Positions 2,498-62,275 of a DNA stretch of 64,000 bases are shown piece after piece. The notes under the pieces were generated by a model. It searched no databases. It saw only the letters and a program-made list of their open reading frames with translations, and was not told where the DNA came from. Source of the stretch: Buddleja alternifolia (Eukaryota; Streptophyta; Magnoliopsida; Lamiales; Scrophulariaceae); assembly GCA_019426215.1 (NCBI GenBank), contig CM033396.1, forward strand, positions 24,815,101 to 24,879,100, in the 5' to 3' direction. Position numbers and translations under genes: made by a program. How positions within the stretch are numbered: the first letter of the stretch is position 1; the number at the start of each line of letters is the position of its first letter.

Positions 2498-3971
2498 AGG
2501 AGGGTCTAGAGGGGGGGGGGGGGTTTGAATAGACCCTGAAGTCTTTTTAGACTTCAAAAATTTTCGTATCACTTAAATATTTTTGAACGCTTGGAGTACT
2601 GAGCGCTTGGGTCAAACGCTTCAGAGTAGTTAACTTAGACTTAGTGATTTCAGCCGTTTACCAAAGTAGGGCAACGCTTAGATCGCTTAATCAGGGTTAG
2701 CACAACGGAAATGATTTTTAGCATTCTTTTAGATAATTTAATCGCTTTGCAATTTTATTTGTCTTTTTCAGAATAATATAATGTGATGAATATAAGACAA
2801 TAAAATATAGATGACACAATAATTTGTAAGGTTCACTGGGTGATTTAATCCCAGCTACGTCCTTCTTCTCCTTTTTCACTTGGAGCAATTTACTATGATG
2901 ATTATCAAAGAATCACACAGAAACTTCTACAAAATAGTAACAGGTGAAAATGATCTTGGGCTCCTTGATCACACAGACTTCAGCACCAATGAAGATCGTC
3001 TTCTTCAAGCTTCTCTCACTCAGAAATACTGCCTGAAAGGGGTACAACAACTTTTCTCACTCAGATGAAAGGTTGAAGGTTATCTCTAGGGTTTTGTTTG
3101 TTTTTGGAAAGATCAAACAACTTGTAATATCTCAAGTGGAATTTGGATTTCTTCTTTAGAAGATGTTTGAGATATTTTGGTGACTGTTTGGAATGTATGT
3201 AAAAAGCTTGAAGATTTTGGCTATGGAGTTTCAAAGCTTTTTCACAGCAAGAGTATATGAATATTTTTCAAATAATAGTTTTCTCGCGTGTGTCTCTTAA
3301 GGTTTTGTTTGGGTGGTATTTATAGACACTTTCTTGAGATCTGTCCGTTGGACACATGTAGGAGCGTGTCATTCACGCGGAGAGTGAATATACCCAAGTT
3401 CTGACATTCCTGAAAAACTGCTGGGGCCGATTGGACGGGAGCAGTTTTAATCTCTGAAATTCTGACAGTCTGAGTAAAAAAGGTGGCTTGTCCACAAGTC
3501 ATAGTAGCTTATCACATTTAATGCTCTTATCAGGCATTTAATGCATTTGAATTTATTTCCCGTTGGAAATAAATGTCCGTTGAATGATTGCATTTAAGTC
3601 CTTCATGACTTGAGGATTTATTTCAGGTGAATCTTACATCCATCGCTTGAGACAATTTGAGCGCTTGATCCATGTATCCTGAAATAGGTTCCTTTAGCGT
3701 TTGACGAATGCTAAGAGACAAATCTTCATCTCTGGTTGAATTCAGACGCTGGTCTTCAACTTCTTCTCTAATAGACTCACCTAGAATTCTACTAGCGATT
3801 CAGTTACTAAGACTTAGTCTAAAATCTACAAAGATAAAAATTACAAGCCTAAACAAAGTTACAAACTTTCAAACGCTTAAACAATGAAAACATAAACTTA
3901 CATTTTTTTGGGGTCTAACAATGATTCCTATCTTGTCATCATCAAAACATCTAACATGAAATTTCCTAACA
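2498..3971 (-). mobile_element. truncated LTR of Copia-like family X
   Basis: The segment aligns by eye along its length with the complete solo LTR X at 42168-43704: the same GGGTCTAGA start area, the same Asn/Thr-rich-looking AT blocks, the same end CATGAAATTTCCTAACA. Its first bases (family end TGTTGGTCCC) are missing, so one end is truncated. In minus sense it starts TGTTAGG and has a TATAAATA at about 3320. Repeated CAAGCG-type words (2580-2660 and 3650-3760) match those of the other copy. It contains a run of 13 G at 2511-2523. Confidence 0.75.
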
Positions 3972-4596
3972 AGGTCGAACTTTGGGTACGCAGTAAGCAT
4001 AGAAAAGAGTTTTGAGGATAACCCGGGCAAAGTGCATTTGATGCCAATGATTTATAGTCTCATATACTTTGGAAGGAACCAAAGATATGCTTTTCGAATA
4101 TGAGAATGGATAGATGAAAGTGAACGGTTTTATGGACTCAGACTTTGAATTTGACTTCAATGACCATAAGTTCACTTTTGGGTATGTATTCACTTTTTTG
4201 AGCGGTGGAGCACTGTCTTGGCGGACGCCATCATTAAAGCATGAATATGTGACTTCCTTAGAGGTTGTTAAGAAAACTGTTTGGATCTAGAAGTTCATGG
4301 TGAAACTCCAAGTACTCCCTAAGCTTGGAGCTAGCGTTGCCACTTTGATGTGACATGAAAGGAGCCATTGCGCAGGCTGCGGAGTCAAAGGTCTCATGAA
4401 AGGTCCGAACATAGAGATACTACATCATTTTGAATGGCCTTTGGAAAAGGCAATATTGCCATTTAAAAAATAGCCATAGCCGAAATCATGGATGGACCAC
4501 TCGCTAAATCTAATACCATAGGCGGTGCTAGAATGTCATCCTTAGAGGATATGTATTAGATACACTAGCAGTTGGCATTGAGTACGAGTAGGAAAT
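3972..4596 (+). pseudogene. Copia K: remnant of RNase H end of pol
   Basis: Broken frames encode the end of a Copia RT/RNase H region: a match to the usual NPGKxHW...LKGTKDMLF stretch, then a V(N)GF-DSDF-like motif (second RNase H aspartate area), GYVFT..GGALSW, and a decayed TEAEY region. Several stops and shifts interrupt it. It ends in a decayed polypurine tract (4580-4596, GAGTACGAGTAGGAAAT) directly before the K LTR. The 5' part of K is absent: X-family LTR sequence abuts at 3971. Too decayed to be coding. Confidence 0.75.
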
Positions 4597-5626
4597 TGTT
4601 AGGTATGTTTCCTCGATGCCAACAATGAGTTAAAACTTGTAGGGCATTGATTTATATTGTACTATTCAATAAAGACATTTGTTTTTGTTCATATCAATCT
4701 TGATGGCATTATTATAAGTATTGAACAAATAAGCCCCAAATAATCAAGATGGAGCCTCTACTCCTCAATGGTTAGAGGAGAAGGACACTAGATGTATCGT
4801 TTCCTTGTTTACTTAAACTAGAGTTCGCAAGTCGACTAGTCTTAATTGGACATTAAGACCAGACTTGTATGACACAAGCTTTGACAAGGAGTGTCAGTTG
4901 GTCACTTTGGATGGTGGGAACTTGGTCATAAATATAGCAATGGAATTGATATATTCGGACATGGCTCGCCATAATTCAATCACATGGGTAATTACTCTTG
5001 GACTTTCAATGATTGAATTACTGGTCACGGTAGTGTGCGTGAGCCTTAGACCTGACGATTTACGAAGATTAGACTTGTGACACTAAACGAGTTAGCAGAG
5101 TAGATAGATCCAATTCACCCTTTGGGGAGATCAACTTTTAAGTGCAGTTCAGAAAAAAAGTGGCAATTGTTCGGTGAGTGCCAATATGGGATTCACTGTC
5201 TCTGATAGTAACGAGTTAACGTCCTATGCGATCATATGTAAATAAAATTATAAGTCTTTGGCTAAAGCAGAAGAATTAACTTATATATAGTACATAAGGG
5301 TAGTTCGGTAATTTCATCTTACTATGATTCATAAAGCACAGGATAGAGTCCTGTGACTTTGACACAAACCATGACTCTCACTCGATCGGGATGTTACAGT
5401 GAAGAGCTTATACTCACAGGATGTTTGTGACCTAAAGGTTCATATATGATCTATTAGAATTGATCTCAATTGGGTTTTGATGTGAGTCCACGAGACTGGC
5501 TAGGTGACACTCACATCCTTGGTCTCCTACTAATGCCAATTGAGACGAACCTAGAGAGTCGCGCTTTCAAGGAATTAAGCGAAGAAATTCTTTCGCTATT
5601 GATATATGTTATTTTTACACTAGTTT

Positions 5627-5646
5627 CCCCCCCCCCCCCCCCCCCC
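5627..5646. repeat. poly-C tract of 20
   Basis: Twenty consecutive C near the start of solo LTR D. Runs this long are unstable and the exact length may be a sequencing estimate. Confidence 0.9.
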
Positions 5647-6152
5647 GTTTATCGACTTAGTTTTGATTATCTCCTTGATAATTTGATCACATATGATACT
5701 TTGATCCTTGTCTTCTCATATTTTATAGAATAACATAACATTTGGAGGAAAAGAACAAGGATTGAAGGTAAATCATGCATAAAGATACAAACTGTCTGCG
5801 CAGTGATAGAGTTTATTGAATAAAGTTCTCTACCCATGTCCAAATTACACACTTGATTTACCAATGGAAAGATAAGAGGCAAAGGTACATTTCTTATGTT
5901 GAAGACAAAGATCAGATATGTAGGGAAGGAGGTGAAAACGTCATCGGAAGAGACGTCTTACGATGGAGTTTTCTCATTCAGTGACTTGTGAGACAATTTT
6001 GTCATCTTTAACGTTTGATTTCGGCCCTAGTGTCTTCTGGAGAGTTGTAGATCTTTGTTTTAGGATTCTACAGCAACTTGAATCAGTGAATTCCGACATC
6101 GGTAGAGAAAGTTATGCGAAGTTTACCAAAACTGGCTGGAGCAGCAGGGGAC

Positions 6153-6241
6153 GAACGCCGAGGCGTTCATCCACGAACGCCGCGGCGTTCACATGCAGTA
6201 GCCAACGCCGAGGCGTTCAACAAGCGAACGCCGCGGCGTTC
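6153..6241. repeat. four palindromic words in U3 of D
   Basis: GAACGCC(G)AGGCGTTC at 6153-6168, GAACGCCGCGGCGTTC at 6175-6190, an AACGCCGAGGCGTT form at 6204-6217 and GAACGCCGCGGCGTTC again at 6226-6241. The GC/CG forms are perfect 16-bp palindromes with four CpG. The last ends 17 bp before the TATA box of D. Confidence 0.95.
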
Positions 6242-6258
6242 GAGGCAGCGGGTTGGTC

Positions 6259-6266
6259 TATAAATA
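6259..6266 (+). promoter_or_regulatory. TATA box of LTR D
   Basis: TATAAATA directly downstream of the palindrome cluster in a U3-like position; a transcription start about 30 bp further on would be expected. Confidence 0.6.
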
Positions 6267-7881
6267 CCCCTTTTAGCCATTTTTTACCCTAACTCACCTT
6301 GGATAGCAGCTGCCACACGAAAATAGAGAGAGAGGGAGCTTAGAAGAGAAGATTGAAGGTCAAAACATGGAGAATTCAACAAGGAATCCACATCTCTACA
6401 AGAATTAGGGAGTTTTTACATATTTGTTTCTTGAATTTGTTCAAATCTCCTATGACTTGTATGATTTATATTTGCACTTTTGACATGAATATGATCTAAA
6501 CTTGTTTGATTGAGGCCATGGATAGGCCATTTATGTTATTTTGATTGTTGTTTTATTGGTGTTTATTGGATTAATTTTGATTTTAGCTATGTATTCAATA
6601 TTTGATCTCAATGCTACATTTGCTTGATCACCAAGTGTTTGATAAAATGCCTAGGTTAGAGATCGAGAGATAATAACCTAGGGAAGATATAAACATTGAA
6701 TACCCTATAGTTAAACCGACTAGAGATAGACTCGGTTTCTTTAGGTGGCTTTCCATTCACGTGGGGAATTCCTAGACCCTAAATGCATCCTCGTTAATCG
6801 GGTTTTCATATAGAGATATATAGGAAATCGTTACCAAGGGTAGGGTTGCTATGCCAAGAGATTGGGTAGTACGTACGTTAAGAAATTTGGCCTTAGCTAA
6901 ATCAATCTAATAATCCAATAGAACCTAAATCACAATCGAAATGCATAATTGGTTGAACCATGTGCCTTGATCGCTTCTCTCTATTGTTTCCTCCCTTTAT
7001 TTGGTGTGACGTTGCCTTAGTTTATTTTCTAGTATTTATTAATTAGTTAATCAAGCTTTTATCGACCGATTTAACTTAGAATTGAGTAATATAGTAGTCT
7101 TGGTACTTAGATTATAGTTGTCCCTGCGGATACGATAACCCCGGACTTAACCATCCACTTTACTACTTACGCGACCTAGTTCTCTTGCTAGGATTTTGTC
7201 GTGTCAGCTATCAAATAACATAAATTAGGCAATTTGTCATTTGATGGTCAAATTAATTTTTTTGATTAGTTCGATTAATGGAAATAAATTAATAATAAAT
7301 AATTTGAAGTATTTATTATGGTCATCCTATTCTAAATTAATAATTAGATTATTTAATTTAGATGATTATGAATTAATATCATATTTTAATTAGATTAAAA
7401 TATGTTGAACTTAATTAATAATTGGACTAAGTTGAAAGTCAACTTGGCCCAATTTTAGATGTGTTAGGCATGTACATGGGAGTTTGATAGACTCGTGGAA
7501 TTAATTAATCCAAGCCCATCACTCCTTATATATACCTAATTACGTAGATGAGAAACCTAAGTCACTCATAATAAACTTGGCAACAAAGAAAGAAAAAGAG
7601 AAAATATTCTCTCTCCCCCTCCCTATAGCCATTGGCCATGGTGAGCCAGAGGAGGTGAATTTTCTACAAGTCTTACTTCCGGTGTAATATCTAGATGCAG
7701 GAGTTCCCGGGATTGCTGCTATGTAGACGGTAGATCGAGAAATGAATCATGCTTCGATGATGGTAAATCATTGTGTTAATTATTTCTGTTTATGTAAAAT
7801 TATTAAACACCATAAAGTGATCCGGCGTTAGGAAGCCACGATTGTTCGCCTTCCGTTGTGCATCCGACCGGATTCTTAACA

Positions 7882-8125
7882 AGCCTTAGTCTACAAATTT
7901 AGCTACTAATAATGTAAAAACAAACTAAAGAATTCATGAAAGTAATAAGTAAATAATAACAAAAACTCCCTATGACTGTGTAGAAAATCTTCTTCTTCTT
8001 CCTCTACTTGCTATTGAGAATTACAAAGGATAAAACCCTAATCTAAGTCTCTCTCTCAATATATATGAAGACGGAAAATCTATTGGAGAAGAACTCTAAG
8101 AATGCTGCCCTCTTAACCCTACTGT
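7882..8125 (-). mobile_element. 3' LTR of C, first fragment
   Basis: Matches 44028-44276 of the 5' LTR of C (for example the shared phrase CTTAGTCTACAAATTTAGC and the CTTCTTCTTCC stretch). Left end cut by K, right end cut by insertion of H, whose TSD is ACTGT here and ACTGC at 22074-22078. Confidence 0.85.
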
Positions 8126-8854
8126 TGTTGGGTAAAAATTGCATAAAATAAAAAAAACGCAGCGGAAGAATATGTTTAAATCCCAGTGGCTCATCTCTAT
8201 TTCTCGTATTTTAATTGGGTTTCGAATTCAATTACCGTTCTCGCGTATGTTGAATTCTGAACCAGTTTTGCAATCCCTTCTTGAACAGCAAATCCGTCGC
8301 TGTCTCGAAATTGCCACGCCGAAGTCAAAAACGAAAATCTTCTTCTTCTTCTCTTGAGGAAGACGGTTAGAGAGAAAGAGTTTGGATGGAGAGTTTTACT
8401 TGGAGAGAAAATTTGTGTTATTATTCACTTAGGTTAATTTTCTCTAAGTAGTATATTTATACTACAATGAAACAATAACCTAGGCTAAATTACCCCCTCA
8501 TGTGGACGCCCACTTTATGGCCTTTTCAGCCATCGGGCTTTAGCCCAATTATGCTTATTTAATTAATTAAATAATTAATATTATTTAACCAATAAATAAA
8601 TTAATTAAATAATCAATTAAATCCATGTTAATATTATAATTAAATTCCTCTAAGGAATTAATTAACTCATTAACTTAATTAATTAATAATATCATCTAAT
8701 GATTAATTAATTAATCATTATATCCAATACCGAAAATTCTCTCAAGTCTTCTCCATGATTTTCACTTTGCACTTCCTTTAAGCGCGACTCTTTAGGTTCG
8801 TCTCAAAAGGCAATTGGGAGGAAACCAAAAGGATGTGAGTAACATCTAGGCATA

Positions 8855-10200: not shown

Positions 10201-10203
10201 AAT

Positions 10204-10221
10204 TGGCGCCGTTGCCGGGGA
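10204..10221 (+). promoter_or_regulatory. primer-binding site of A (tRNA-Asp)
   Basis: TGGCGCCGTTGCCGGGGA, complementary to the 3' end of plant tRNA-Asp; three bases after the LTR end. Confidence 0.93.
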
Positions 10222-10340
10222 AGTCAACAAATAGTCAATATCAATAACAAGTTGATTCTTATTAGTTTAGACATTTTTTTTATTTTTATTTTTGATTTTT
10301 TATCTGTTTGAATTTTGATACTTGAGATTCTAGTTTTAGA

Positions 10341-20461: not shown

Positions 20462-20462
20462 T

Positions 20463-22073: not shown

Positions 22074-22425
22074 ACTGCATTAGTTTGTATTTATAGGCGT
22101 GGTTTGAGAAGAGTTCGTGTAGGTGTAGAGTTTGAAAATTTCCAAAATTGTTCTGCCGACATCAACGTTCGAACGTTCTCTTCCTGGCATCCGTGCGTTG
22201 GCTCTCTCATTGTTCGTGCGTGAGACCTCAGCACGTTCGAATGTTCTGCTCCTCACATTCAAACACTAGCTTCAGCGACTTTCTGCTCTGAAATTCCATC
22301 TTACTTTTTCTTTCATCCTTTTGTTTCAAATGCTATGATTTATACCTGGATACTCAAAATAGACAGATTACACGCATATGTGGTATAAAATCATACTTAA
22401 TTCTATGAAAATCACACAACTAAAC
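22074..22425 (-). mobile_element. 3' LTR of C, second fragment, with palindromic words
   Basis: Matches 44277-44620. Contains AACGTTCGAACGTT at 22164-22177 and a CACGTTCGAATGTTC form at 22232-22246. A third site at 22253-22265 reads CACATTCAAACAC where the other LTR has CACGTTCGAACGC, that is, its CpG sites have become CpA. A TATAAATAC (element sense) sits at about 22085-22095. Right end cut by B at TSD TAAAC. Confidence 0.85.
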
Positions 22426-24156
22426 TGACACGCTAAAAACTAACGTGGTATGATAGCAAGTGCACTAGACGTGTGTAGTAATAAGTGGACAAAAAGTCCG
22501 GGTTGTCGAACCACAAGGACTTGAATTCTAGTTAATGATTTTCGATAAAAGAAAAGACAATTAAAGTAAAGTGCAAGAAAAAGATTAAACAAACGAAGAA
22601 CTAAAGAGAAACGTACTATAGATTAAATCTCACGTATGATAAAATGACTAAGGCACATGCTACAACCGAATCTACTCGTCAATATATATGAGCTACTCCT
22701 CGAATTATTAGACTCCTATTGCTTTGGTGGAAATTCCTTAGATAATTATTACCCGATGTCTCGGCACATAATAATCCTATGATTAATTGATGGTTCTCTA
22801 AATATGTCTATCCGAGAATCTAATCAATAACCACGCATTAACGTTCTAGAGTTTCCCCGGATAAATCCGGCTAACTGCACCCAAAAATCTTTACCTATGT
22901 CTAGGGGCAATTCCACATTAGTTTCGGATGATGAGTTGATTCCATTGAACCCTAATCTATCTTCTCTCGAATGACTAGACTAGGCAAGATAGCAAGCATA
23001 TGGTGATCAAGCACATGATTGTAATAAAAGCTCAAAATCAACACACAAAGCAATATGAGAATTAATACGAAAATTCACTTCACATATATTGATTCATAAA
23101 TTGGCTTTCACATGGCCTTAGTTCTCTAATATTAGCCTCTCATCAAGGCCTTAAGAAAATCTAATACAAACATATACATACTCATGGAAATAAACATGTA
23201 AATGCAAGTAATTAAAACTCCCTCAATTGATTGATGATGGATCCTTGCTTTTGAACTTCAATCCTTAACTCCTCTCTCTCTTGTTCCCCTCCAAAAGTGA
23301 TGAAGAATGGTGATGAATGATGATGGGTGAAGAGTAATGGCCAGCTGCCTCCTCCTCCAAGATGTCTCCTTTCCAAAGTGAAGAAAAATGCCTTAAGAAG
23401 ACCAGAAATTCTGAGCTCCCTAGTGTGTGTCTCCCCTAGTGTGTGTCTTCCACTACTCTAAAGTGAGTAGTATAAAATTCCATAAGTAGATCTACTAAGA
23501 AACATACTTATGACATCCCCTCCATACATGTGATGACCTTTTGGCTTTAAATGTTCCATTCCCCCATCAAATGATGATCTTTTGGCTGAAAGGAATCAAA
23601 ACTCGGGTGTGGTCACGCCTAGGCGTGGGCATTACGGCGCTTGGGCGCCACTGACAGAATGCTGAAATTAAATGCAATGTGTCCTGCGCAGCAATCGTAT
23701 TTCATTCATAACTTTCTCCACGAAACTCCGATTTGGATGATTCAAGTCCTCATTTGAAGCTAACATATATTTCTACAACATTGTAGAAGGGAACTTCATC
23801 CAATTCGGTCTCTAAACATACGGAAATAGCACTCGAACGTGGAAAGTGGTGCAGATACGGCGCCTAGGCGTGGACAGGACGGCGCCTAGGCGTGGACAGC
23901 AGAATGTTGACGTTATTTGCATCTTGTCCGGCACCTGGGCGTGGTAATACTGGTGCCTGGGCGTGGACGAGAGAAGCAAATTGGCCTGAACTTGTTTTAT
24001 ACGTCGTTTTTCGCCTCGTTTCTTCGTATGCTCAAATTTATCACCTGTAATCACTTAACACCCCGCTAAAACGCAAATGTGGCATGATTTTGTCAATAAA
24101 TGAATCCATAGCATAAGTCCCATAGGCTTAAAAACACGTAAAAATGCCTCTTATCA
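22426..24156 (-). mobile_element. 3' LTR of B
   Basis: 1731 bp, TGACACG to CTTATCA on the plus strand. Words of the GGCGCCTAGGCG type at about 23607-23650 and 23858-23965. Against the 5' LTR it has an extra CCCCTAGTGTGTGTCT segment near 23435 and an extra CT pair near 23278. CACCTGG and GTGCCTGG here replace CGCCTGG forms in the other LTR, again loss of CpG. Confidence 0.93.
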
Positions 24157-25780: not shown

Positions 25781-27099
25781 CTAATCTGTAGTGCCAAAAC
25801 GGTCAATGTAGTCCTCATCCGTTCCGCCGAGATCATCCAAATCAATCAACGGGCTACCCTCATCATTATGAGCCTCATCATCACCTCCTACAGGAACGAG
25901 AGCACCTGACTCGTGCAAATCTGCGGGCTGCTGAGGCGGGGGGTGCGGGTAAGGTGGAGGAGTAGAATAATCAAACGGCCCCCGACCGACAAACTCATTA
26001 TGCTCGACAAGAAGCTGACGGAAATAAGCACAAGTGTCGGACATGACCACCCTCATCTCATCTCGCAACTCATCCCTCAATTCATCCTTTAATTGTCTAA
26101 TGGCGGCGGCATCCATAGGTGGAAACTGTGGGAACTAGTAGACCGGTATGAAGACGGGCGAGGCCTCTTGGAAGTAGCTGGTGGTGGAGGAGCCTGGGGG
26201 TCGTCATCTACCACGGCGAGATAAGAACCAGGGAGCTCAGTACGCTCCATAGGAAATGTGGGAACCTTAGCTGCTTTGCATAAAACTGTGATCAGTGACG
26301 GGAGAATGATGGGATTCTTCCGAGTGGGACCTTCGCCCTTTTGCTTAGCCAATTCTTTGTTAATCAACGGCCTTAACTCATTCTTCAAATTCCTAAAGTG
26401 GTCCGTCAAAGACTTGTGGATCACCCGGGCAAAGTCCACAGCTTTCTTGGACATAATAACATAGATGAGGGTGGCCCGTTCCTTGTTTGCCTCTGACCGA
26501 TTGGTACTCGGTATTAAATTGAATCGGATGAAGTCGAGCCAAAAAGCAGCCTCGGGAAGTAGAGCCCTACGGGAGACAAGAGCTTCTCCGGGTACCCACT
26601 CCCACCCCTCTCGGACAATAACCCGCAAAATATCCGATAGGCTAACCCGGAGGCGCCCTGCATTGTAAAGAGTGGTGAACTCGCATGTCTGAGGGGTGGG
26701 GGTGCCTATGCTCTCCCTAATCTGTCTCAACTCATAATCGACATGTTTGCCCCGTACCAAAAGGGTACTCCCCAGCCATCCTCGCGTCTCAATCTCATCA
26801 TAAACCCCGGAGCTGAAGAATTCCAGGACCCAAGGAAGACAGATGGCCTCGGGCTTTTGACAAAAAAACTGTAAGTGATGGAACTGTATCAATTCGTGCA
26901 CAGAGGGCTGTCCCCGGGTGGTCAAATAGTGCTGTTTAATAAGGGTGCGGGGGGTGCTCAAACTCTGACACATAATTTGGACTTTGGGGTTTTTGAAACG
27001 GGTATTATCGGGAGTCTCGGGCTCATTAGAGGAACCCTCACCCACTTTTTTCTTACCCTTGGACGGTTTGTTGGTAGTTCTCGTCATTTGCAACAACAA
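25781..27099 (-). pseudogene. ORF3 of B, putative plant transposon-associated protein
   Basis: ORF 27099-26089 (336 codons; the ATG at about 27084, MTRTTNKPSKGKKK, is the likelier start) followed by 26116-25781 in a frame shifted by one indel near 26115. The first part has a basic N-terminus, then a conserved globular region (RGWLGSTLLVRGKHVDYEL, WEWVPGEALVSRR, AAFWLDFIRFNLIPSTNRSE, RATLIYVIMSKKAVDFARVI). The second part is charged and coiled-coil-like (LKDELRDELRDEMRVV), then Pro-rich and acidic. This corresponds to the family often labelled putative plant transposon protein, found downstream of integrase in Athila-like elements. Its role is unknown; no membrane segment is apparent, so an envelope function is not supported. 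Element C has a diverged homologue. Confidence 0.8.
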
Positions 27100-28038
27100 T
27101 GGTTAAAATTATCTCAATTTCTCAACTACTCAAATCAACCCGAATGCAACCAACCCAACACAACAATCGTCAACGCCCAACAACACACCAAAATCAGAGA
27201 GCAACCCACAATCTAGCAACAATCCACGATCAACAGATTCCTCAATTTTAAGCAACAATCCACAGATTTAACAACAATATAGCATCCAATTCAACAACAA
27301 CAACCCCCAAATTCGACTACAACCCACAAATTGATAACAACCCACAGATTTAACAACAATAGAGCACCAAATTCAACAACAACAACCCCAAATTCGATAA
27401 CAACCCACAAATCCAATAAAAGTCCTCAAATGCAACAAAAAACACAATCGGACGAAATCCCCAATTAATCCTCAAAATATAACGTAAGGCACCTACTCGT
27501 CGGCTATGAATCGGAAATGGAAGAAGGGTAAAGCCAAAACTCACCTTTTATCCCCAAAATTATCGCACCGAGTCGATGTGAAAGAGGAGCCACTTGTGCA
27601 GCGAGTTCTGTTGATGGAAAGTGGCGGTGAAACACGGTGGAAATGGCCGGAAATGGTGAGAGTGTCGCCGGAAATCGCGTGGGAGAGGAGTTGTGAAGAT
27701 TTTGTGAGAATTTTGACCGTTTTGATCCACAGATATGTTTAAATCAAAAACGGGCGCCTAGGAGCGCGACACAGCGTACCTGGATTTTTGAGTGACACCT
27801 TCCGCGCCTAGGCGGGAGTTTTTCGGCGCTTGGGCGGCCCTTTCAGCAATGGGCGCCTAGGCGCGCGTCGATAGGCGCCTAGGCGGGCTTTTCAGAAATA
27901 TTATGTAAAGAATTTCATTTCCTGTTTCAAAAGGGGAAAGACAAAATACTTAAAACACAAACTAACAAAGATTTAAGACTAGAAAATAAAGCAACAAATG
28001 GGATAATAAGAAAAAAAGAAAAGGAAACGGAAAGAAAA
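27100..28038 (-). other. spacer between pol and ORF3 of B with palindromic words
   Basis: 27230-27420 is a run of CAACAA-rich low complexity. 27748-27890 carries at least four words of the GGCGCCTAGGCG type (for example near 27848-27862 and 27869-27883) plus decayed forms such as GGCGCTTGGGCGG. No gene seen. The same word occupies the U3 of the LTR and the gag-protease linker of this element. Confidence 0.8.
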
Positions 28039-29317: not shown

Positions 29318-32300
29318 TTAATGAAAAGTGATATCCGGGGGAAGACGGCCCGTAACAATGTAATTGGCAAAGTTAGCATACCAAGGTGAAATTTTGTCAG
29401 AAATAGCAAGGAGGTGTTCATCCGGGAATTCCTCACGAATTGGTATCTCATCTAACGGATCATGCACTAGCTCTAATCGTGAGAGGTGGTCGGCTACTAC
29501 ATTTTCGGTGCCTTTCTTGTCTTTTATCTCTAAATCAAATTCTTGGAGTAACAAAATCCACCTAAGAAGTCTTGGTTTAGCATCTTTCTTGGCAAGCAAA
29601 TATTTTAAAGCCGAATGATCGGTGTAAACTATCACTTTGTTTAGCACGAGGTAAGAGTGAAATTTATCGAATGCAAAGACTATGGTTAGTAATTCTTTTT
29701 CCGTGGTGGCATAATTCAATTGTGCATCGTTAAGAGTTTTACTAGCATAGTAAATGGTTCGAAATACCTTCTCCTTCCTTTGGCCAAGGACCGCTCCAAC
29801 CGCAGTGTCACTCGCATCACACATCAACTCGAATGGTAAGCTCCAATCGGGGGGTGACATGATAGGGGCGGAAACTAAGCGTTCCTTCAAATCAAGAAAG
29901 GCCTGCATACAAGAAGAATTGAAATCAAAAGGTGCATCTTTGACAAGCAAATTAGACAACGGTTTCGCAATTTTAGAGAAATTCAAGATGAATCGCCTAT
30001 AGAAACCGGCATGCCCGAGAAAACTCCTAACAGCTTTTACCGAAGTGGGCGGGGGAAGTTTTTCAATGACCTCAATCTTGGCTTGGTCCACTTCGATCCC
30101 TTTTTGAGAGATCTTGTGGCCAAGCACAATCCCCTCCCGGACCATTAAATGACATTTTTCCCAATTCAAAACAAGGTTGGTTTCCTCACAACGTTTAAGC
30201 ACAACATTTAAATGAGCAAGACAAATATCAAAAGTTGTTCCGAATACAGAAAAGTCATCCATAAAAATTTCAAGGAAATCTTCAACCATATCATGAAAAA
30301 TAGCCATCATGCATCTTTGAAAAGTGGCCGGGGCATTACACAAGCCAAATGGCATCCTTCTATAAGCAAATGTGCCATAAGGACAAGTGAAAGTGGTTTT
30401 CTCTTGGTCCTCGGGATCTATGGCAATTTGATTATAGCCGGAGTAACCATCTAGAAAACAATAGAAATCATGCCCGGCTAATCGTTCAAGCATTTGGTCA
30501 ATAAAGGGGAGGGGGAAATGATCCTTACGGGTGGCATCATTCAACTTACGGTAATCTATACACACACGCCACCCACTAATTATACGAGTTGGGATTAGCT
30601 CATTATTCGCATTCTCAATTACCGTTATCCCCCCTTTCTTAGGCACCACTTGGGTAGGGCTCACCCACGCACTATCAGAAATAGGATAGATTATACCTGA
30701 GTCGAGCAGTTTAATCACTTCCTTCTTTACTACCTCTTGGATTTGTGGGTTTGACCTCCTTTGGGGTTGGCGTGTAGGCTTGGTGGAGTCCTCCATAAGT
30801 ATTTTGTGCATACATATCGCTGGACTAATGCCTTTGATGTCCGCAAGTTTCCACCCAAAAACCCGTTTGTGAGATCTCAACACCGTCATTAATTGCTCTT
30901 CTTGTGATCCTGAAAGAGATGAGGAAATGATCAATGGGAGTGTTTCGTCGTTGTTCAAGTACACATATTTAAGGTGGGAGGGGAGGGGTTTGAGTTCGAG
31001 AGAGGGGGGTTCTTCAATAGATGGGCGAGGTGCTCCTGACAATGATCTATCAACTTTGATGAATCCTCCCGAATGAGAGAAAGATTTGTACTCCAAGCTT
31101 AGAACCCTTTCCACTAGATCATCTTTCTCCGAGTCCACTTGCATGGATTTCATAAGAGCCTGTTCGAGAGAATTTTCAACTGTATTGTCCTGTAAATACT
31201 CAACAATCAACTGGTCAAATGTATCAATTCGATAACACGAGTCATGATCAATAGGATGTTTAAGGACTTTGTAAACATCAAAGGTAACTTTGTCATCGCC
31301 CACATTCAAGGTAAGCTTACCATTAGCAATGTCAATCACCGCCTTACCTGTGGCTAGGAATGGTCTCCCTAGGATTAATGGTACCTCCACATCTTCTTCC
31401 ATGTCGAGTACCACAAAATCAACGGGAAAATAAAACTTGTCGACTTGGACAAGAACGTCTTCGATTATCCCCTTGGGCCTCTTGATTGATCGGTCGGCTA
31501 GTTGAAGGCTCATTGAGGTCGGCTTGGGATTTCCAAGGCCTAGCTTTTTAAATAGTGAGTATGGAAGAAGATTGATGATGGCCCCCGAGTCACATAACAC
31601 CTTCTTGAACGATAAGGACCCAATCGTGCACGGGATTGTGAGGCTCCCGGGATCTTGGAGCTTAGTTGGCAATTTATTGAGCAATACGGCGGAGCATTCT
31701 TTCGTGAGGCACACCGCCTCATTCTCCTCCCACTTCTGCTTGTTGGAGAGTATGTCCTTGAAGAACTTCACATAATTCGGCATTTGGAGAATGACGTCAA
31801 TAAACGGAATATTAATTCTCACTTCCCAAAGGATTGCCAAAATTCGAAGAAAGCTCGGATCCATCTCCTTTTTCTTCTTTTTGTGAGCATTTGGGAAAGG
31901 GAGACGAACTTCGATAGGGGGAGAAAGCGTTGGATTAGACGGATGAAAACCCACTGAAACAGTAGGCGGCGCCTGGGCACGTATATTGGCGCCTAGGCGC
32001 GGATCTGTAGGCGCCTGGGCGTGCATGTTGGGGCGCTCGGGTGCGGGATTCAGAACAGATGCATCTGGCAGGGTTGCGGGTGGCGCCTGGGCGCGTATAT
32101 TGGCGCCTAGGCGCGGATCTGTAGGCGCCTGGGCGTGCATGTCGGGGCGCTCAGGCGCGGAAAACAGAGAATTTTGTCCAGAGCAGGGGAGATCTGGCGC
32201 CTGGGCGTGCATCTCGGGGCGCTCGGGCGCGGATGTATTGGCAATGTCACTCTCTAATTGTTTTCCACTTCTCAAGGTTATGGCATTGCATTGAGCCTTC

Positions 32301-33773: not shown

Positions 33774-35487
33774 TGACACGCTAAAAACTAACGTGCTATG
33801 ATAGCAAGTGCACTAGACGTGTGTAGTAATAAGTGGACAAAAAGTCCGGGTTGTCGAACCACAAGGACTTGAATTCTAGTTAATGATTTTCGATAAAAGA
33901 AAAGACAATTAAAGTAAAGTGCAAGAAAAAGATTAAACAAACGAAGAACTAAAGAGAAACGTACTATAGATTAAATCTCACGTATGATAAAATGACTAAG
34001 GCACATGCTACAACCGAATCTACTCGTCAATATATATGAGCTACTCCTCGAATTATTAGACTCCTATTGCTTTGGTGGAAATTCCTTAGATAATTATTAC
34101 CCGATGTCTCGGCACATAATAATCCTATGATTAATTGATGGTTCTCTAAATATGTCTATCCGAGAATCTAATCAATAACCACGCATTAACGTTCTAGAGT
34201 TTCCCCGGATAAATCCGGCTAACTGCACCCGGAAATCTTTACCTATGTCTAGGGGCAATTCCACATTAGTTTCGGATGATGAGTTGATTCCATTGAACCC
34301 TAATCTATCTTCTCTCGAATGACTAGACTAGGCAAGATAGCAAGCATATGGTGATCAAGCACATGATTGTAATAAAAGCTCAAAATCAACACACAAAGCA
34401 ATATGAGAATTAATACGAAAATTCACTTCACATATATTGATTCATAAATTGGCTTTCACATGGCCTTAGTTCTCTAATATTAGCCTCTCATCAAGGCCTT
34501 AAGAAAATCTAATACAAACATATACATACTCATGGAAATAAACATGTAAATGCAAGTAATTAAAACTCCCTCAATTGATTGATGATGGATCCTTGCTTTT
34601 GAACTTCAATCCTTAACTCCTCTCTCTTGTTCCCCTCCAAAAGTGATGAAGAATGGTGATGAATGATGATGGGTGAAGAGTAATGGCCAGCTGCCTCCTC
34701 CTCCAAGATGTCTCCTTTCCAAAGTGAAGAAAAATGCCTTAAGAAGACCAGAAATTCTGAGCTCCCTAGTGTGTGTCTTCCACTACTCTAAAGTGAGTAG
34801 TATAAAATTCCATAAAGTAGATCTACTAAGAAACATACTTATGACATCCCCTCCATACATGTGATGACCTTTTGGCTTTAAATGTTCCATTCCCCCATCA
34901 AATGATGATCTTTTGGCTGAAAGGAATCAAAACTCGGGTGTGGTCACGCCTAGGCGTGGGCATTACGGCGCTTGGGCGCCGCTGACAGAATGCTGAAATT
35001 AAATGCAATGTGTCCTGCGCAGCAATCGTATTTCATTCATAACTTTCTCCAAGAAACTCCGATTTGGATGATTCAAGTCCTCATTTGAAGCTAACACATA
35101 GTTCTACAACATTGTAGAAGGGAACTTCATCCAATTCGGTCTCTAAGCATACAGAAATAGCGCTCGAACGTGGAAAGTGGTGCAGATACGGCGCCTAGGC
35201 GTGGACAGGACGGCGCCTAGGCGTGGACAGCAGAATGTTGACGTTATTTGCATCTTGTCCGGCGCCTGGGCGTGGTAATACTGGCGCCTGGGCGTGGACG
35301 ACAGAAGCAAATTGGCCTGAACTTGTTTTATACGTCGTTTTTCGCCTCGTTTCTTCGTATGCTCAAATTTATCACCTGTAATCACTTAACACCCCGCTAA
35401 AACGCAAATGTGGCATGATTTTGTCAATAAATGAATCCATAGCATAAGTCCCATAGGCTTAAAAACACGTAAAAATGCCTCTTATCA
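33774..35487 (-). mobile_element. 5' LTR of B
   Basis: 1714 bp, TGACACG to CTTATCA on the plus strand, TSD TAAAG to its right. Near-identical to 22426-24156. A weak TATA (TTTTATACTACT in element sense) is at about 34795-34806, downstream of the word cluster. Confidence 0.93.
34945..35295. repeat. palindromic words in U3 of B
   Basis: CACGCCTAGGCGTG at 34945-34958, GGCGCTTGGGCGCC at 34967-34980, then GGCGCCTAGGCG at about 35190 and 35212 and GGCGCCTGGGCG at about 35261 and 35284. In element sense they precede the TATA-like box. Confidence 0.92.
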
Positions 35488-35523
35488 TAAAGCACTATAA
35501 AACACGTAATTCTCAACTCTATC
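35488..35523 (-). mobile_element. 3' LTR of C, last fragment
   Basis: TAAAG...CTCTATCA matches 44616-44651. Followed at once by a polypurine-like AAGTTTCGAGGAGT (element sense, 35524-35537). Confidence 0.82.
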
Positions 35524-37236: not shown

Positions 37237-38512
37237 TCATCGGGCAAATAGTTTAATGCGGGTACCAGTGGATAAGGAGAATAAGGCCTGCCCTCCGAAC
37301 GATCCATGACAAGGGCTAAGTCCCTTTGATAGTGCTAACATCCTCATATTCTCCATCATCACGGATTGTGTCGCCCCAATCCCTTTTTGTGCTTTCCTCA
37401 TAAAGTGAAGATCATGTGATATAGTAGCAAGAAAAATAGGTGTGCAGGTCCTTTTTGAGCTCTCTCCCCTCTCTCGGGTAAATCTAGGCATCAGGCCTTG
37501 TCTTTCTTTTTTTCCCTAAAAGCAATATCCACTCTCGGTCTCTCAAATCCCTCATCACTTTCCCACCTGACCCCTTGCTTTATGCATAATGTGCTAATCA
37601 AGGATGGAAAAATTAGTGGAATTTTCATGGTAAGGCACAGGTTAACCATCTCACTGCCTATCTTCCTCACTTGGCTCAATAAAGTATCAAAGATGAGAGT
37701 TGATAAATCAACCATCTTCAAGGTCATAATGCAATCTATTAGAAGAGCTCTCTCTTTGTTAACCGAAGACCAGTTACTAATGGGTAAAACACAATATCAA
37801 ATGAATTCAATAAATCTCTCGGTGGTATTTCTCTCTTGTTATCACAAAATTTTGCTCCTTCTATTGCAATTTCCTTCAAGACCATATCTCGGTCTAAGGT
37901 ATTTGCCTCCTCTTGATCCACTAACGTTTTGTAAGCACACTTTGAAGGAACGGGGAGGTTCATATACTCCTTCAACTTTGATTTTGAAAAATCGCCTTCC
38001 ACCCCTCTTACCATCACCTTGTACACCCCATTTTGTAAATTTTCCCTAGACTCCGTGCTTGCACTATTTGCATAAAATTCCTTCACCCAAGCACGCACTA
38101 TCATCCTTGAGGTAGTAGCAATGTACGACAAAAATAAGTGTTGCCTTGTAGCTAGCACGAACATCTTTTTCACTCCTATTGATCTCTCTTTGTGTAGCTC
38201 ATATCCTTCAAGTCTTTTGCAGAATTGTTGGGTATCTTCCTCTTTCCTCAGAGTGTTTGCCTCTTGCTTATCACTTTTATCCTTTTTCACTCCCGAACTC
38301 TCTCCTCGACAAAGATTTTCGAATCTCAATCTCGCCATAGAATGAACACAACTCCAAATCTCCCGAAACTCGTCCAATACAATCTCTCCTCGGATCAACT
38401 CAACCACTACACCACTACAAAAAAATACCAATACCACAATACACAATAATAGCAGAAAAAGCCCCACACGGCTATCACAAATAATGAATAAAGAAGGGCT
38501 CAAGCTAATCAC
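37237..38512 (-). pseudogene. ORF3 of C, homologue of B ORF3
   Basis: Frames 38512-37739, 37727-37491 and 37491-37237. The likely start is the ATG at about 38339 (MARLRFENLCRGESSG). The conserved region follows: LSYIATTSRMIVRAWVKEFY, then after a one-base shift near 37775 NKERALLIDCIMTLKMVDL, which aligns with NKERATLIYVIMSKKAVDF in B, then IPLIFPSLISTLC aligned with PIILPSLITVLC in B. So this is the same family, much diverged. The C-terminal piece has the Met-rich/helical HFMRKAQKGIGATQSVMMENM. Function unknown; broken by at least one frameshift and stops. Confidence 0.78.
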
Positions 38513-39228
38513 TTACAGCGTATGCAGCGCAGAAAGTAGAACCCACGTCTAGAGACGTAAATTCGAACGTTGGGTTTGTCGCCTTCGGACGTGAGTCACG
38601 CAATGTACTGTGTACTCTTTCTTTTTCTTTTGTCGTGCTGGATGATAAACCCTTGGTCTAATAGCTACTGTGTAATTTTTCTATGTGAGATTATGTTAAT
38701 GGGTTTGTATTAGGCATGAGTGTTTATGGTGTGTGATATATGGGTTTAAATAGAAAAATTCCTTGTGTGTGAAGAGTTTTATATGGAACAGATAGTGATA
38801 ATGATGGAAGGATTTTGTGATATGGAAGGATTTTATGGATGTTTTGGAATTAAAAGTTTGATTTGGAAACGTATGATATATTTGGCGCGAGTATCTTGGA
38901 GAAGAGAGTATTTTGAATGGAATATGAGTTTAAATCAGTTAATTCTTTTCTGACGGGATCCATGTTCGAACGTTGAAGGTGGTACATTCTGGCGTACGGT
39001 CTGACGTAAATATTTTTCTCACAAACTCACGTTCGAATGTCTGACACTCCACGTTCGAACGTCACATGCTACATGTTTAAACTTCTGATGTTCCACGTTC
39101 AGGCATGTTGTTTGAAGACTTCATCAGAATTTTACCATTTTTCTGCCCAAAAACAAAGACACAAGATCAAAAGACAACAAAGTAAAACAAAACCTAACTA
39201 AAATAAAAATAAAATACAAATTAAACAG
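38513..39228 (-). other. spacer between protease remnant and ORF3 of C, with palindromic words
   Basis: Words of the C family at 38553-38566 (ATTCGAACGTTGGG), 38962-38975, about 39030-39062 (CACGTTCGAATGT and CACGTTCGAACGT) and a decayed CACGTTCAGGC at about 39095. No gene seen. The position equals the word-bearing spacer of B (27748-27890) and of A (13021-13034). Confidence 0.8.
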
Positions 39229-43704: not shown

Positions 43705-44357
43705 ATAACCTATACTAGATTGGGTGTAGCAATCTCTCTTATATGCATTAAACACCAGAGTTTTCCCTAGATTAATTCAGATTTCCTCTAAATAAATCCG
43801 GCTAACAACATCTAGAGTTGTACAACTAACTTAGAAGATGTTATTAATCCTTTTTTCACCTTAATTTACTTTCTCCGTAACAGATAAACTAAGCATTAAA
43901 TCTTATATATGTTGGCCAAACACACAAAGCATTAAGAACAAGATTATAACACAAAGCAATATAAATCATTCATACGAGAAATACTTTCTATAATTCAAAA
44001 ATCATAATTCAGCCTAATCATGGCCTTAGTCTAAAAATTTAGCTACTCATAATGTAAAAACTAACTAAAGAATTAATGAAAGTAATTAATAAATAATAAC
44101 AAAAATTCCCTATAACTGTGTAGAAAACCTTCTTCGTCTTCCTTCAATCTTCCCCTGCTTGCTATGGACAATTACAAAGGGTAAAACCTTAATCCAACAC
44201 TCTCTTTCTATATGAAGATGGAAAATTTGCTGAAGAAGAACTCTAAAAATGCTGCCCTCTTAACCCTGCTGCATTAGTTTGTATTTATAGGCGTGGTTTA
44301 AGAAGAGTCCATGTAGGTGTAGAGTTCGGAAATTTCCAAAACTGTTTTGCAGAAATC

Positions 44358-44460
44358 AACGTTCGAACGTTCTCTTCCTGGCGTCCGTGTGTTGGATCTC
44401 TCAACGTTCATGCGTAAGACCTCAGTACGTTCGAATGTTCTACTTCTCACGTTCGAACGC
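44358..44460. repeat. palindromic words in U3 of C
   Basis: AACGTTCGAACGTT at 44358-44371 (perfect palindrome), an ACGTTCGAATGTTC form at 44427-44440 and CACGTTCGAACGC at 44448-44460, with a partial CAACGTTCATGCG at about 44403. In element sense they lie 70-170 bp upstream of the TATA box. Confidence 0.92.
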
Positions 44461-44651
44461 TAGCTTCAGCGACTTTCTGCTCTGAAATTCCATCTTACTG
44501 TTTCTTTCATCCTTTTGTCTCAAATGCTATGGTTTATACTTGGATACTCAAAATAGACAGATTACACGCATATGTGGTATAAAATTATACTTAATTCTAT
44601 GAGAATCACACAACTAAAGGACTATAAAACAGATAATTCTCAACTCTATCA

Positions 44652-49719: not shown

Positions 49720-50971
49720 TAACACGTGTTTATCCTAGCAAGTATACTAGGTCGTGCAAAGTAATAAAGTGTACTATTTAGCCCGGGGTGTATCGTCTCC
49801 ACAGGGACAATTGGATTCAATTCTCGTAATTGCTATATTACCTATTTCTAAGCTAAATCAATTTATAACATGATAGATGATTATACTTATGAAAATAAAC
49901 AAAGGATAACTAAATGATAAACAAGGTAATAAATCAAATGGAAAGAGATGATTGGGCTATGATCCTACTATGTTCTATCTTATGTTCATAAACTCTAAAT
50001 TACCCGGATTTTTAGAACACTCTTGTTATGGCGAAACCACCTAATGTATTCATTACTCAATCTCTTGAAATAATGATCCTATACTAGTTAACACTTCCCA
50101 TATCTCTATAGCGAAGATTGAATTAACTAACATGCATTAAGGTTCAAAGGGATTCCTTGCTTACGAAGATCCTACATTCACTTGGGTCATCTTATCACAA
50201 AAGGCCACACAACGCAATTGATTCTATCTCTAGTCAATTGTTACGTTATGATATTTGATTTTATGATCTACCTTTATCTATCTCCTCTCGGTCTCAAGAC
50301 AAAGCATTAAATCAAACACATGGTGATCAAGCATTAAGCATAAAAATCAAACATGCAACAAGAATGTAATAAATCCGAAAACTAGGAATTCATTAAACAC
50401 AAAATATCACAAAGTATTCACATAACCCAACCACAAAGATACTTACCTCATACTTGCAACAAAAGATAATCCAATATTTCCAAAAGACATAGTTGATATA
50501 CTAATCTAAGAGAAAGAGTTGAATTACTCCCTATTACAAAGTGTGATTCCAAGATTTATGATGAAAAATGACTCTTCAAGCTTCCTCGGGACTTGTCATG
50601 GCTTCCTGGGACTTGGAGAGCAACAATCCTCCTTTTGGTAGGTGAAAAGTGACTTATAAAGACCAAAAATGGAGGATATAAAACTAGGGCACGGGAAAAT
50701 GGACCGCTGTCTGAAACGTGGCAGACCACGGTCCACTGGCGTGTAGGACCACTGTCCAATAGGACTGCGGTCCAGAAGGACAGATTTTAGCCTTTCATTT
50801 GCTTTGTGTCTTTTCTTCGGCCTTCTCACTCGATATTTGATCTATTCAACTTGAATCCCTGCACACATGAAATGACAACAAATCAAAGCAACATGCGGGA
50901 TTGTCATTACTAAACTATGACAAAAATACCTATATAAAGGGGATAAATAATTGTAAAATGTGAACTTATCA
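49720..50971 (-). mobile_element. solo LTR G (Gypsy-like), TSD ATGTC
   Basis: 1252 bp between perfect ATGTC duplications (49715-49719 and 50972-50976). It starts TAACACG, apparently TG changed to TA, and ends CTTATCA. The start resembles B and D (ACACG...AGCAAG...TAATAAAGTG) and CCACAGGGAC marks U5 in minus sense. It splits J integrase at the zinc site. Confidence 0.87.
50700..50785. repeat. palindromic words in U3 of G
   Basis: GGACCGCTGTC at about 50701, GACCACGGTCC at about 50724, GGACCACTGTCC at 50746-50757 and GGACTGCGGTCC at 50762-50773. All are GGACCnCnGTCC-type near-palindromes. In element sense a TATA-like TTTATATCC or TTTATAAGTC follows within 50 bp. Confidence 0.85.
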
Positions 50972-52490: not shown

Positions 52491-53932
52491 TGATAAGTGC
52501 AATATTTATATATTTTATTACCTCTATCTTTAGCATTTTATTGTGATTATATGGCCATTGGAACTGATTTTATCTCATTTTTTGATTTAGGCAAGATTTG
52601 GAGTGCAAAATATCAATTTCAATCAAAATGGCAGATTTGGCGATGTTTTGGAAATACTGATATATCTGGAGATGCATAAGTTAGTTTCTATCGAATCTTA
52701 TCCAGTTGGAAAGCTAAGACAAATGCCTACATTTCTTGTGAAGACGTCCAGGCCCAGCTCGGAATTTTAAGGGCCCAAAAGTGCTCAAGAACAGAAGATT
52801 TCTGTTATGGACTGGACTGCGCAGCTGTGGTGAAAAATTCATAAATAGAGTTATGTATCCTGGATTTAGTCAAGGCCCATTGGAATTGAAAGATAACACA
52901 CGGATCTACAACTTTCTAGAAGGAGTTGAAGTCAAATTTGAGGGTTAATTAGAGACAATTCAAGTTGTAAAGGGAAGAATATATTCTCTATGCTTTTAAT
53001 GCAAAAGAGAAGAATATATTCTCCATGTCTTGATAAAGGAAGAGAGAATATATTCTCTCCATGATTATAGCATCCTTTCATTGCCTATATATATGTCTTG
53101 CAAGACTTGAAGAGAACAACAACAAAAACAAGAAGAAAACAAAGAGAAGATAGTTAGAAAAATAATATTTTCAAGTTTTATGCTTACAATTATGAGTAGC
53201 TAAGTTTTTATTTCGATTCAAGGGAGTTCATTTTGATTCACATGTTGTGAGACACAGAGCTTCATCTATCTATCTACGGTTTGATTATCTTTTGTTTCTT
53301 ATCTTAATGTTCATGCTTGTTTAGATAATAATCTAAGGTGCACATTAGTTGATTAGCTATTACAATCTATTGCTAACAAATCTTCATAATCCGTAATTGT
53401 TATGTTTGATTTGTGCATGTAGCAATTAGGTTTTCATGATTAGGATCCCAATTTTCGTTGATAACCTAAGGGAAACATTAGAGTAAATTAAATAGTTGGC
53501 GCTTGCTTAAACTATTGTTTATCCTTAGTCGCTTCTAATTTGTTATGCTATTATTAACATGATTAGGATTGCTTAATACCGAGTCAGTTGATAATAAGAA
53601 TTTAACCGGGTGCTGGGCTTTGGTTAATGATATACGGAAGTTAATAGGGATATAAATAGCTGGTTATTTATGTTCTTGGCTAAGTAATCAAAGAATAGAT
53701 AGTATTTTAGGTGTCTATGATCAACTTGAATTGAAGAACGAACTATCCTTGAATCGATGCTTTACATTTATTGAACTTCCTATTTAATTCCTGTCATTAT
53801 TAATACATCAAACAAACCTCCCCATTGAATATTATTTTGATCAACCAATCTCTAGGGTTCGACCTGGACTTACAAGTACTACAAATTCTTGTGAGAACAG
53901 TAATTATATTTTGGTGCATTCGACACGTACCA
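52491..53932 (+). mobile_element. 5' LTR of E1
   Basis: 1442 bp, TGATAAGTGC to CACGTACCA. TATATATAT at 53088-53096, U5 with AATCTCTAGGGTTCGACCTGG. It has three AGAATATATTCT words where the middle LTR has four. Confidence 0.92.
52977..53059. repeat. palindromic words in U3 of E1
   Basis: AGAATATATTCT at 52977-52988 and 53011-53022, and the perfect 18-bp palindrome GAGAGAATATATTCTCTC at 53042-53059. The last ends about 30 bp before the TATA box. Confidence 0.93.
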
Positions 53933-60799: not shown

Positions 60800-62275
60800 T
60801 GATAAGTGCAATATTTATATATTTTATTACCTCTATATTTAGCATTTTATTGTGATTATATGGCCATTGGAACTGATTTTATCTCATTTTGTGATTTAGG
60901 CAAGATTTGGAGTGCAAAATATCAATTTCAATCAAAATGACAGATTTGGCGATGTTTTGGAAATACTGATATATCTGGAGATGCATAAGTTAGTTTCTAT
61001 TGAATCTTATCCAGTTGGAAAGCTAAGACAAAGGCCTACATTTCTTGTGAAGACGTCCAGGCCCAGTTCGGAAGTTTAAGGGCCCAAAAGTGTTCAAGAA
61101 CAGAAGATTTCTGTTCTGGACTGGACTGCGCAGCTGTGGTGAAAAATTCATAAATAGAGTTATGTATCTTGGATTTAGTCAAGGCCCATTGGAATTGAAA
61201 GATAACACACGAATCTACAACTTTCTAGAAGGAGTTGAAGTCAGATTTGAGGGTTAATTAGAGGCAATTCAAGGTGTAAAGGGAAGAATATATTCTCCAT
61301 GCTTTGATGTTAAAGGGAAGAATATATTCTCTATGCTTTAATGTTAAAGAGAAGAATATATTCTCCATGTCTTGATAAAGGAAGAGAGAATATATTCTCT
61401 CCATGATTATAGCATCTTTTCATTGCCTATATATATGTCTTGCAAGACTTGAAGAGAACAACAACAAAAACAAGAAGAAAACAAAGAGAAGAGAGTTAGA
61501 AAAATAATATTTTCAAGTTTTATGCTTACAATTATGAGTAGCTAAGTTTTTATTTCGATTCAAGGGACTTCATTTTGATTCACATGTTGTGAGACACGGA
61601 GCTTCATCTATCTATCTACTGTTTGATTATCTTTTGTTTCTTATTCTTAATGTTCATGCTTGTTTAGATAATAATCTAAGGTGCACATTAGTTGATTATC
61701 TATTACAATCTATTGCTAACAAATCTTCATAATCCGTAATTGTTATGTTTGATTTGTGCATGTAGCAATTAGGTTTTCATGATTAGGATCCCAATTTTCG
61801 TTGATAACCTAAGGGAAACATTAGAGTAAATTAAATAGTTGGCGCTTGCTTAAACTATTGTTTATCCTTAGTCGCTTCTAATTCGTTATGCTATTATTAA
61901 CATGATTAGGATTGCTTAATACCGAGTCAGTTGATAATAAGAATTTAACCGGGTGCTGGGCTTTGGTTAATGATATACGGAAGTTAATAGGGATATAAAT
62001 AGCTGGTTATTTATGTTCTTGGCTAAGTAATCAAAGAATAGATAGTATTTTAGGTGTCTATGATCAACTTGAATTGAAGAACGAACTATCCTTGAATCGA
62101 TGCTTTACATTTATTGAACTTCCTATTTAATTCCTGTCATTATTAATTCATCAAACAAACCTCCCCATTGAATATTATTTTGATCAACCAATCTCTAGGG
62201 TTCGACCTGGACTTACAAGTACTACAAATTCTTGTGAGAACAGTAATTATATTTTGGTGCATTCGACACGTACCA
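60800..62275 (+). mobile_element. shared LTR: 3' LTR of E1 and 5' LTR of E2
   Basis: 1476 bp, near-identical to 52491-53932 except for one extra ~35-bp unit carrying an AGAATATATTCT word (four copies: near 61284, 61319, 61353, 61384-61401) and scattered substitutions. Preceded by the E1 PPT and followed by an E2 primer site. Confidence 0.93.

Follow-up and report, generated by a model that had tools for sequence, protein, structure and literature searches.

What purpose do the short palindromic words serve that stand iterated before the promoters of several retrotransposon families at this locus, and does each family own its word? The window, by which we mean the whole 64,000-nucleotide stretch that was analyzed, is a nest in which a minus-strand element, C, was entered by element B and by the copia element H, and H in turn by A. 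A preliminary description of this DNA had proposed that six LTR families (A, B, C, D, E and G) each carry an unrelated, family-specific word at a common place, as would befit sites co-evolving with a family-specific factor. The elements are laid out as follows.

44651 to ~41820 (5' LTR), 41798 (PBS), 41762-40516 (gag), 38512-37739 (ORF3), from ~35529 (3' LTR), minus strand: C element
22424-35489, minus strand: B element, with flanks TAAAC and TAAAG
22424..24153, minus strand: B 3' LTR, with words at 23614-23894 and the PPT at 24160
33774..35489, minus strand: B 5' LTR, with the PBS at 33750
8125-22074: H, a copia element inserted in C and itself entered by A
5613..7206, plus strand: D LTR, solo in the window, its start placed from the related locus L024

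The D LTR matched both LTRs of L024 (3462-5056 and 7880-9473) at 97.8-97.9% over 5642-7206. The two B LTRs were 97.5-100% identical in eight 200-bp bins (22420-24019), and the bin after these, which spans the LTR boundary, showed 89% identity and 37 gaps; a B LTR of 2.8 kb common to the C element was ruled out by this binned identity, by the PPT and by the near-TSD TAAA(C/G). Pfam showed the gypsy arrangement of domains in both B and E, with gag PF03732, RVT_1, RNase H PF17917 and integrase core PF00665, and D carries RT, RNase H and integrase arranged likewise, with its gag recognised via similarity to that of B; the C gag was recognised by similarity only. Gypsy domain order together with a sense 3' ORF of PF20167 type was found in B and D and, with a weak PF20167 match, partly in C. 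The PBS type we take to be Athila/Tat-like. Our use of the name Athila-type rests on the preliminary description, on this PBS type and on the placement of the ORF3 family in the part of one paper available to us (PMC11728184). Several neighboring structures were seen in passing: E forms a tandem LTR-internal-LTR-internal array (52491-64000, continued in L006:1-6618) that extends past the window, with repeats ~99.5% identical over 2.7 kb; D elements in L007 and L008 likewise stand in tandem, repeating every ~5,863 bp; and K, an unrelated LTR with relatives at ~2518-3972, is inserted in the C 5' LTR (42200-43700).

The word arrays and TATA boxes of the LTRs are listed here, with the number of shuffled sequences that matched each array in brackets; the TATA boxes were read from the sequence.

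6153..6241, plus strand: D word array, four copies of (G/C)AACGCCG(C/A)GGCGTTC (0/500)
6258..6266, plus strand: D TATA box, CTATAAATA
34945..35296, minus strand: B U3 word array, comprising CACGCCTAGGCGTG, GGCGCTTGGGCGCC, two GGCGCCTAGGCG and two GGCGCCTGGGCG (0/500)
44358..44461, minus strand: C U3 word array, three sites, in the C 5' LTR that is interrupted by an inserted LTR (0/500)
44282..44289, minus strand: C TATA box, TATAAATA on the minus strand
22164..22245, minus strand: C words in the C 3' LTR, two sites
52975..53057, plus strand: E word array, AGAATATATTCT, three sites (1/500)
53085..53095, plus strand: E TATA box, CTATATATATG
61284..61399, plus strand: E word array in the next LTR, four sites
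50701..50773, minus strand: G imperfect array of GGACC type, four sites (0/300, looser test only)

Upon scoring iterated palindromes in each U3 against 500 dinucleotide shuffles, with a perfect word of arm 5 or more required, we found the score to be matched by none of the shuffles for B, C and D and by a single one for E, while a copia LTR taken as control was matched by 9 of 500. The A and G U3 regions scored 0, as neither held an iterated perfect word of arm at least 5. A second, looser test, devised after the strict one had failed for G, accepted arms of 4 with a spacer of 0-6 and no more than one mismatch. It found four GACC-NN-GGTC sites in G, a result that none of 300 shuffles reached, and two sites in A, a count reached by 81 of 300; for the K and J LTRs the corresponding figures were 169 and 131 of 300. 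The array claimed for A (9147-9260, plus strand) was rejected on its strict score of 0 and its looser result. Hence, of the six families proposed to carry iterated palindromes, B, C, D and E stood the strict comparison with shuffled sequence, G did so only with imperfect words under the looser one, and A dropped out; as the LTRs of J, A and K lack an array, not every LTR here has the feature. A de novo scan of the window, which has a G+C filter below which the E word falls, returned eight arrays, whereas 40 local Markov simulations gave 0.1 on average and never more than 1. Seven of the eight consist of B, C or D words, and the other is AT-rich and lies in a copia LTR. When clusters were ranked on palindrome density alone, an AT-rich one (45951) led the window and D came second.

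The arrays occupy a recurring place with a word that differs between families, much as had been described, apart from A. Of the four D 16-mers, at 6153, 6175, 6203 and 6226, two match GAACGCCGCGGCGTTC exactly and the other two have a central A; the last of the four ends 16 bp upstream of the TATA box. Placement before a TATA box was likewise borne out for C and E; in B no canonical TATA box was identified in the window, and L020, a relative of B, has CTATAAA 20 bp past its last word. Within families the arrays vary: the B 3' LTR is without the two GGCGCCTGGGCG sites of the 5' LTR, and exact GAGAATATATTCTC occurs once per E LTR, the remaining E words starting AAGAA. In exact counts over the 853.6-Mb genome, the D word occurred at 2834 places against 0 for a reversed-word control, the B word GGCGCCTAGGCGCG at 2725+2523 against 0+0, and the C word CACGTTCGAACGT at 719+863 against 4+5. 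On contig C1, the listed places comprised 85 distinct C-word sites, 39 of which had another exact site within 500 bp, where 0.2 would be expected at random. Beyond the window, most element copies were retrieved by the word itself, and all come from a single genome. Three further palindrome clusters were noted: a D-word array of three sites (L016:7070-7137), one of several D-word arrays that were not assigned to an element, iterated TTGGGCT..AGCCCAA palindromes (L006:8079-8320) beside sequence matching window 45473-47181, and five TGCACAACTGTGCA palindromes with A-rich runs between them (L019:7899-8213).

The words turned out to be less family-specific than had been described. In part they do differ between families, but B and D share CGCC-NN-GGCG, and the C word is common to unrelated LTRs: ACGTTCGAACGT is iterated before the promoter in two Athila-type LTR families, C in the window and C' (L029, L022, L033), and in one Ty1/copia LTR family, M (L031, L034, L035). 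The U3 arrays of C words in L031, L033, L034 and L035 were each matched by 0 of 300 shuffles. L033 was assigned to C' at 88.6%. The three M LTRs resemble one another at 68-76%, with no detected similarity to the Athila-type LTRs compared, and a copia-type gag was found in one of the three M loci (L035, downstream, E 2.5e-15). After the M array the promoter motif is CTATAAATA in L035, CTATATAAA in L034 and only a weak CATAAAAATAG in L031. A further locus, L032, has four C words in an element that was not assigned. The converse was found as well: three LTRs resemble the B LTR at 76-84% over hundreds of bases, and of these L020 carries B words, C' (L029 with L022) carries the C word and J (L027, L023, L026) carries none. 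The C-word loci were picked by the exact word, so that they are evidence of sharing and not of its frequency; L020, L022 and L023 were picked by nearby D words, and L026, L027 and L029 extend them. As the same word stands in unrelated LTRs, and homologous LTRs have different words or none, the words behave as exchangeable modules. By eye, a block TTGTAGA..CT..TTGAATCA..AAGTTATG appears common to the D, B and J U3 regions (6040-6120; 35020-35140; L027:8100-8210), with the rest differing.

We found the words to be iterated a second time inside the elements. In all three families in which ORF3 was found (B, C and D), the family's own word recurs between integrase and ORF3, and in B it is also found within coding sequence.

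27753..27887, minus strand: B word array between integrase and ORF3, five sites (0/300 shuffles)
26089..27102, minus strand: B ORF3, PF20167, E 2.8e-26
38961..39063, minus strand: C word array upstream of ORF3, three sites, with a fourth, weaker one at 38558 (the four sites together 0/300 shuffles)
37739..38512, minus strand: C ORF3, PF20167 at E 3.8e-08, its 33.9 bits falling short of the curated threshold of 45
31968..32209, minus strand: B word array within the gag-pol linker coding region, eight sites

The D copies L010 and L013 have an ORF3 of PF20167 type (E 2.6e-42 and 6.2e-42) preceded by six and five sites of the D word, each array matched by 0 of 300 shuffles, and in the D copy formed by L012 plus L013 the word, sought with an exact core and one centre base free, is confined to the two U3 regions and the region before ORF3. 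The match between the two places is specific, in that, of the four words tested, only the family's own occurs in the pre-ORF3 regions of B, C and D, which makes the matrix of words by places diagonal. A TATA-like sequence follows within ~10 bp of the pre-ORF3 array in L013 and L010, and is weak in B and C. Two copies of an 82-bp tandem repeat (27254-27438) lie between the B array and ORF3; the array in the B gag-pol frame encodes a repeated peptide, ~PERPxMHAQAP..NIRAQAP; and in L035 four degenerate C words precede the copia gag domain (2175-2365, 0/300 shuffles), in parallel with the B coding array. Among 75 B-word clusters built from the first 100 places listed, on contig C1 only, 14 same-strand pairs stood 4.0-4.7 kb apart, a band set after inspection, compared with a random mean of 0.2. 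In the window the gag-pol array of B stands at a similar distance, ~4.1-4.3 kb, from its pre-ORF3 array, and both internal B arrays therefore probably recur in other copies.

The second array strengthens the earlier suggestion that the word is a recognition site for a factor acting in trans, and it raises the possibility that this factor is the element's own: ORF3 would be a nuclear, sequence-specific regulator or anti-silencer that, like VANC, binds its own word in U3 and before ORF3. The word precedes ORF3 in 3 of 3 families with that gene, whereas neither of the two families in which ORF3 was looked for and not detected (E and J) has any of the four tested words after integrase, and J lacks U3 words too. 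The pol identity of B and D is 84.6% and their ORF3 identity 23.6%, so that ORF3 diverges along with the word; from the accessible portions of two papers, a sunflower Athila PF20167 protein has a predicted nuclear localization signal (PMC11728184) and antisense ORFs of Retand have predicted DNA-binding capacity (PMC11963269). Nevertheless, gag is divergent between B and D as well (35%), the C word serves a Ty1/copia family, and words occur where ORF3 was not detected, namely in E and in the D-type copy of L014 with L025, which has LTR words, no recognised 3' LTR and, in L025, no D words at up to two mismatches. Searching Pfam at E up to 10 with ORF3 gave PF20167 and one weak unrelated match, with no DUF1985/DUF287 and no DNA-binding domain; the sequences in PDB gave no significant match, none of 3198 candidate homologues in the protein database reached E<=0.001, and a structure model (pLDDT 31.5) was unusable. 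We thus consider an ORF3-encoded factor unlikely. Its fuller form, in which ORF3 would be a regulator and not an envelope, the word would co-evolve with it in a self-regulated circuit, and copia and ORF3-less elements would borrow the word so as to be activated by that protein too, appears to us distinctly doubtful. Co-evolution with a family-specific factor, which the preliminary description had favored, is weakened by the sharing of the C word and by the different words of homologous LTRs.

The way in which the words change bears on two other explanations. Among 172 D-type words (84 with a perfect core), CpG decay was the largest substitution class (84 of 195), and the centre dinucleotide was freer than the core. 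Across six D copies, word columns were 84.7% identical compared with 65.5% for other U3 columns, as delimited by a mask from one sequence only and with a bias that remains, since all copies except that of the window came from loci picked by the exact D word. Mirror-compensatory changes were seen in 2 of 17 two-mismatch D words, against ~1.5 by chance, and pairing in RNA thus leaves no trace here. In the D pre-ORF3 array the U3 spacer GCAGTAGC lies in reverse orientation, indicating that it was probably copied and inverted, and D-word number varies among close copies, with two in the U3 of L010 and six in that of L013.

In one of these the words would act in RNA, as hairpins in U3 or internal RNA serving packaging or dimerisation, as small-RNA precursors or as silencing targets, a role that has been proposed for the palindromes of maize Sireviruses. 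Each of the nine word strings tested could form a short hairpin (-2.4 to -9.7 kcal/mol with flanks), and both array places lie within the genomic RNA; palindromes are, moreover, small-RNA hotspots in maize Sireviruses, according to the part of PMC5311732 available to us. The lack of excess compensatory change speaks against such a role, however, as do the opposite orientation of the D internal spacer relative to U3 and the weak hairpins of C (-2.4) and of one E string (-4.0), and we think it very improbable. Alternatively, the arrays might be functionless, owing their expansion and spread to replication slippage and template switching, and persist only through the youth of the copies. The differing copy numbers in L010 and L013, the shared reversed spacer, the predominance of CpG decay and the presence of arrays in coding linkers are all in line with this, and arrays could be maintained by recombination alone. 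Yet slippage would not predict a recurrent placement before both promoter and ORF3, nor palindromy, nor the same word in unrelated superfamilies, and we regard an absence of function as quite unlikely.

We favor, with a probability of about 0.5, the reading that the words are sites for dimeric DNA-binding proteins encoded by the host, arranged in an LTR array and an ORF3 array that act as portable modules. Repetition, dyad symmetry, occurrence in either orientation, sites before two (putative) promoters and conservation of the word point to arrays for a dimeric factor, and a host factor would, with about even odds, be its simplest source because one word serves both copia and gypsy elements. 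Dimeric host proteins, most simply transcriptional activators, would bind the iterated words, and the array in U3 would act as the upstream activating array of the LTR promoter. The second array of the same word, in the interval between integrase and ORF3, would probably drive a separate ORF3 transcript from an internal promoter. Arrays would be gained, lost, inverted and exchanged between elements, presumably by recombination or template switching, and such exchange would leave related LTRs with different words and unrelated LTRs, of Ty1/copia and Ty3/gypsy elements, with the same one. A role before promoters accounts poorly for some of our observations: it leaves unexplained the M words before the gag domain and the B words within gag-pol coding sequence, the TATA-like sequence after the B and C pre-ORF3 arrays is weak, and the B U3 is without a clear TATA box.

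The maize Sirevirus palindromes were reportedly described as small-RNA hotspots by Bousios et al. in 2016, and one published study is said to have found LTR retrotransposons inserting at palindromes. The statement in the preliminary description that no system of this kind had been described was wrong as to kind and holds at most for Athila, given that the Sireviruses have an equivalent layout. According to the portion of Bousios 2010 available to us (PMC2829016), their RM boxes are iterated palindromes upstream of the TATA box in the LTR and upstream of env. In that portion, too, the word is short, palindromic and element-dependent, iterated in the upper LTR before the TATA box, with extra copies upstream of env where env is present and none in env-less elements, just as, among five families here, B, C and D have the internal array and E and J do not. 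The differences from that account (PMC2829016, same portion) are that Sireviruses are Ty1/copia elements, whereas B, D and E have a Ty3/gypsy-type pol; that the LTRs counted here have 2-6 copies, compared with 3-14 in their Table 3; that the CGG-CCG core is absent from the words here; and that one word is here common to copia and gypsy elements. Family M is copia by the gag of one locus, which does not imply membership in the Sireviruses. The palindromes of maize Sireviruses, as far as the accessible part of PMC5311732 goes, likewise lie in the LTR cis-region, but they belong to Ty1/copia elements and concern host small RNAs.

For a self-encoded factor, the targets of VANC in the VANDAL anti-silencing system are the nearest functional analogue. 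As described in the available part of Hosaka 2017 (PMC5735166), VANDAL transposons also have iterated short noncoding motifs that differ markedly from one related element to the next, and an extra protein that evolves fast alongside them; however, they are DNA transposons, the motif of VANC21, YAGTATTAY, lacks palindromic symmetry, and VANC has DUF1985/DUF287, whereas ORF3, the candidate factor here, has only PF20167. Changing noncoding arrays of the VANC type were found here, although arrays here also lie in coding linkers. Sunflower Athila 14 shares an extra sense 3' ORF with a Transposase_32 domain (PF20167), predicted to be nuclear, but a palindromic array is not mentioned in the part of that paper available to us (PMC11728184).

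The architecture is thus known in kind, and our literature search on Athila and gypsy elements found neither an equivalent one for Ty3/gypsy, as in the Athila-type version here, nor a word shared across superfamilies. Our results extend the promoter layout of Sireviruses to the other retrotransposon superfamily and place one word in both superfamilies within the same genome, a pattern suggesting that genomic parasites of unrelated kinds draw on a common control factor. They yield the testable claim that a few host (or element) factors are common to unrelated retrotransposons via interchangeable modules. The second array, in turn, offers a handle on the expression of ORF3 and on its role in plant Athila-like elements.
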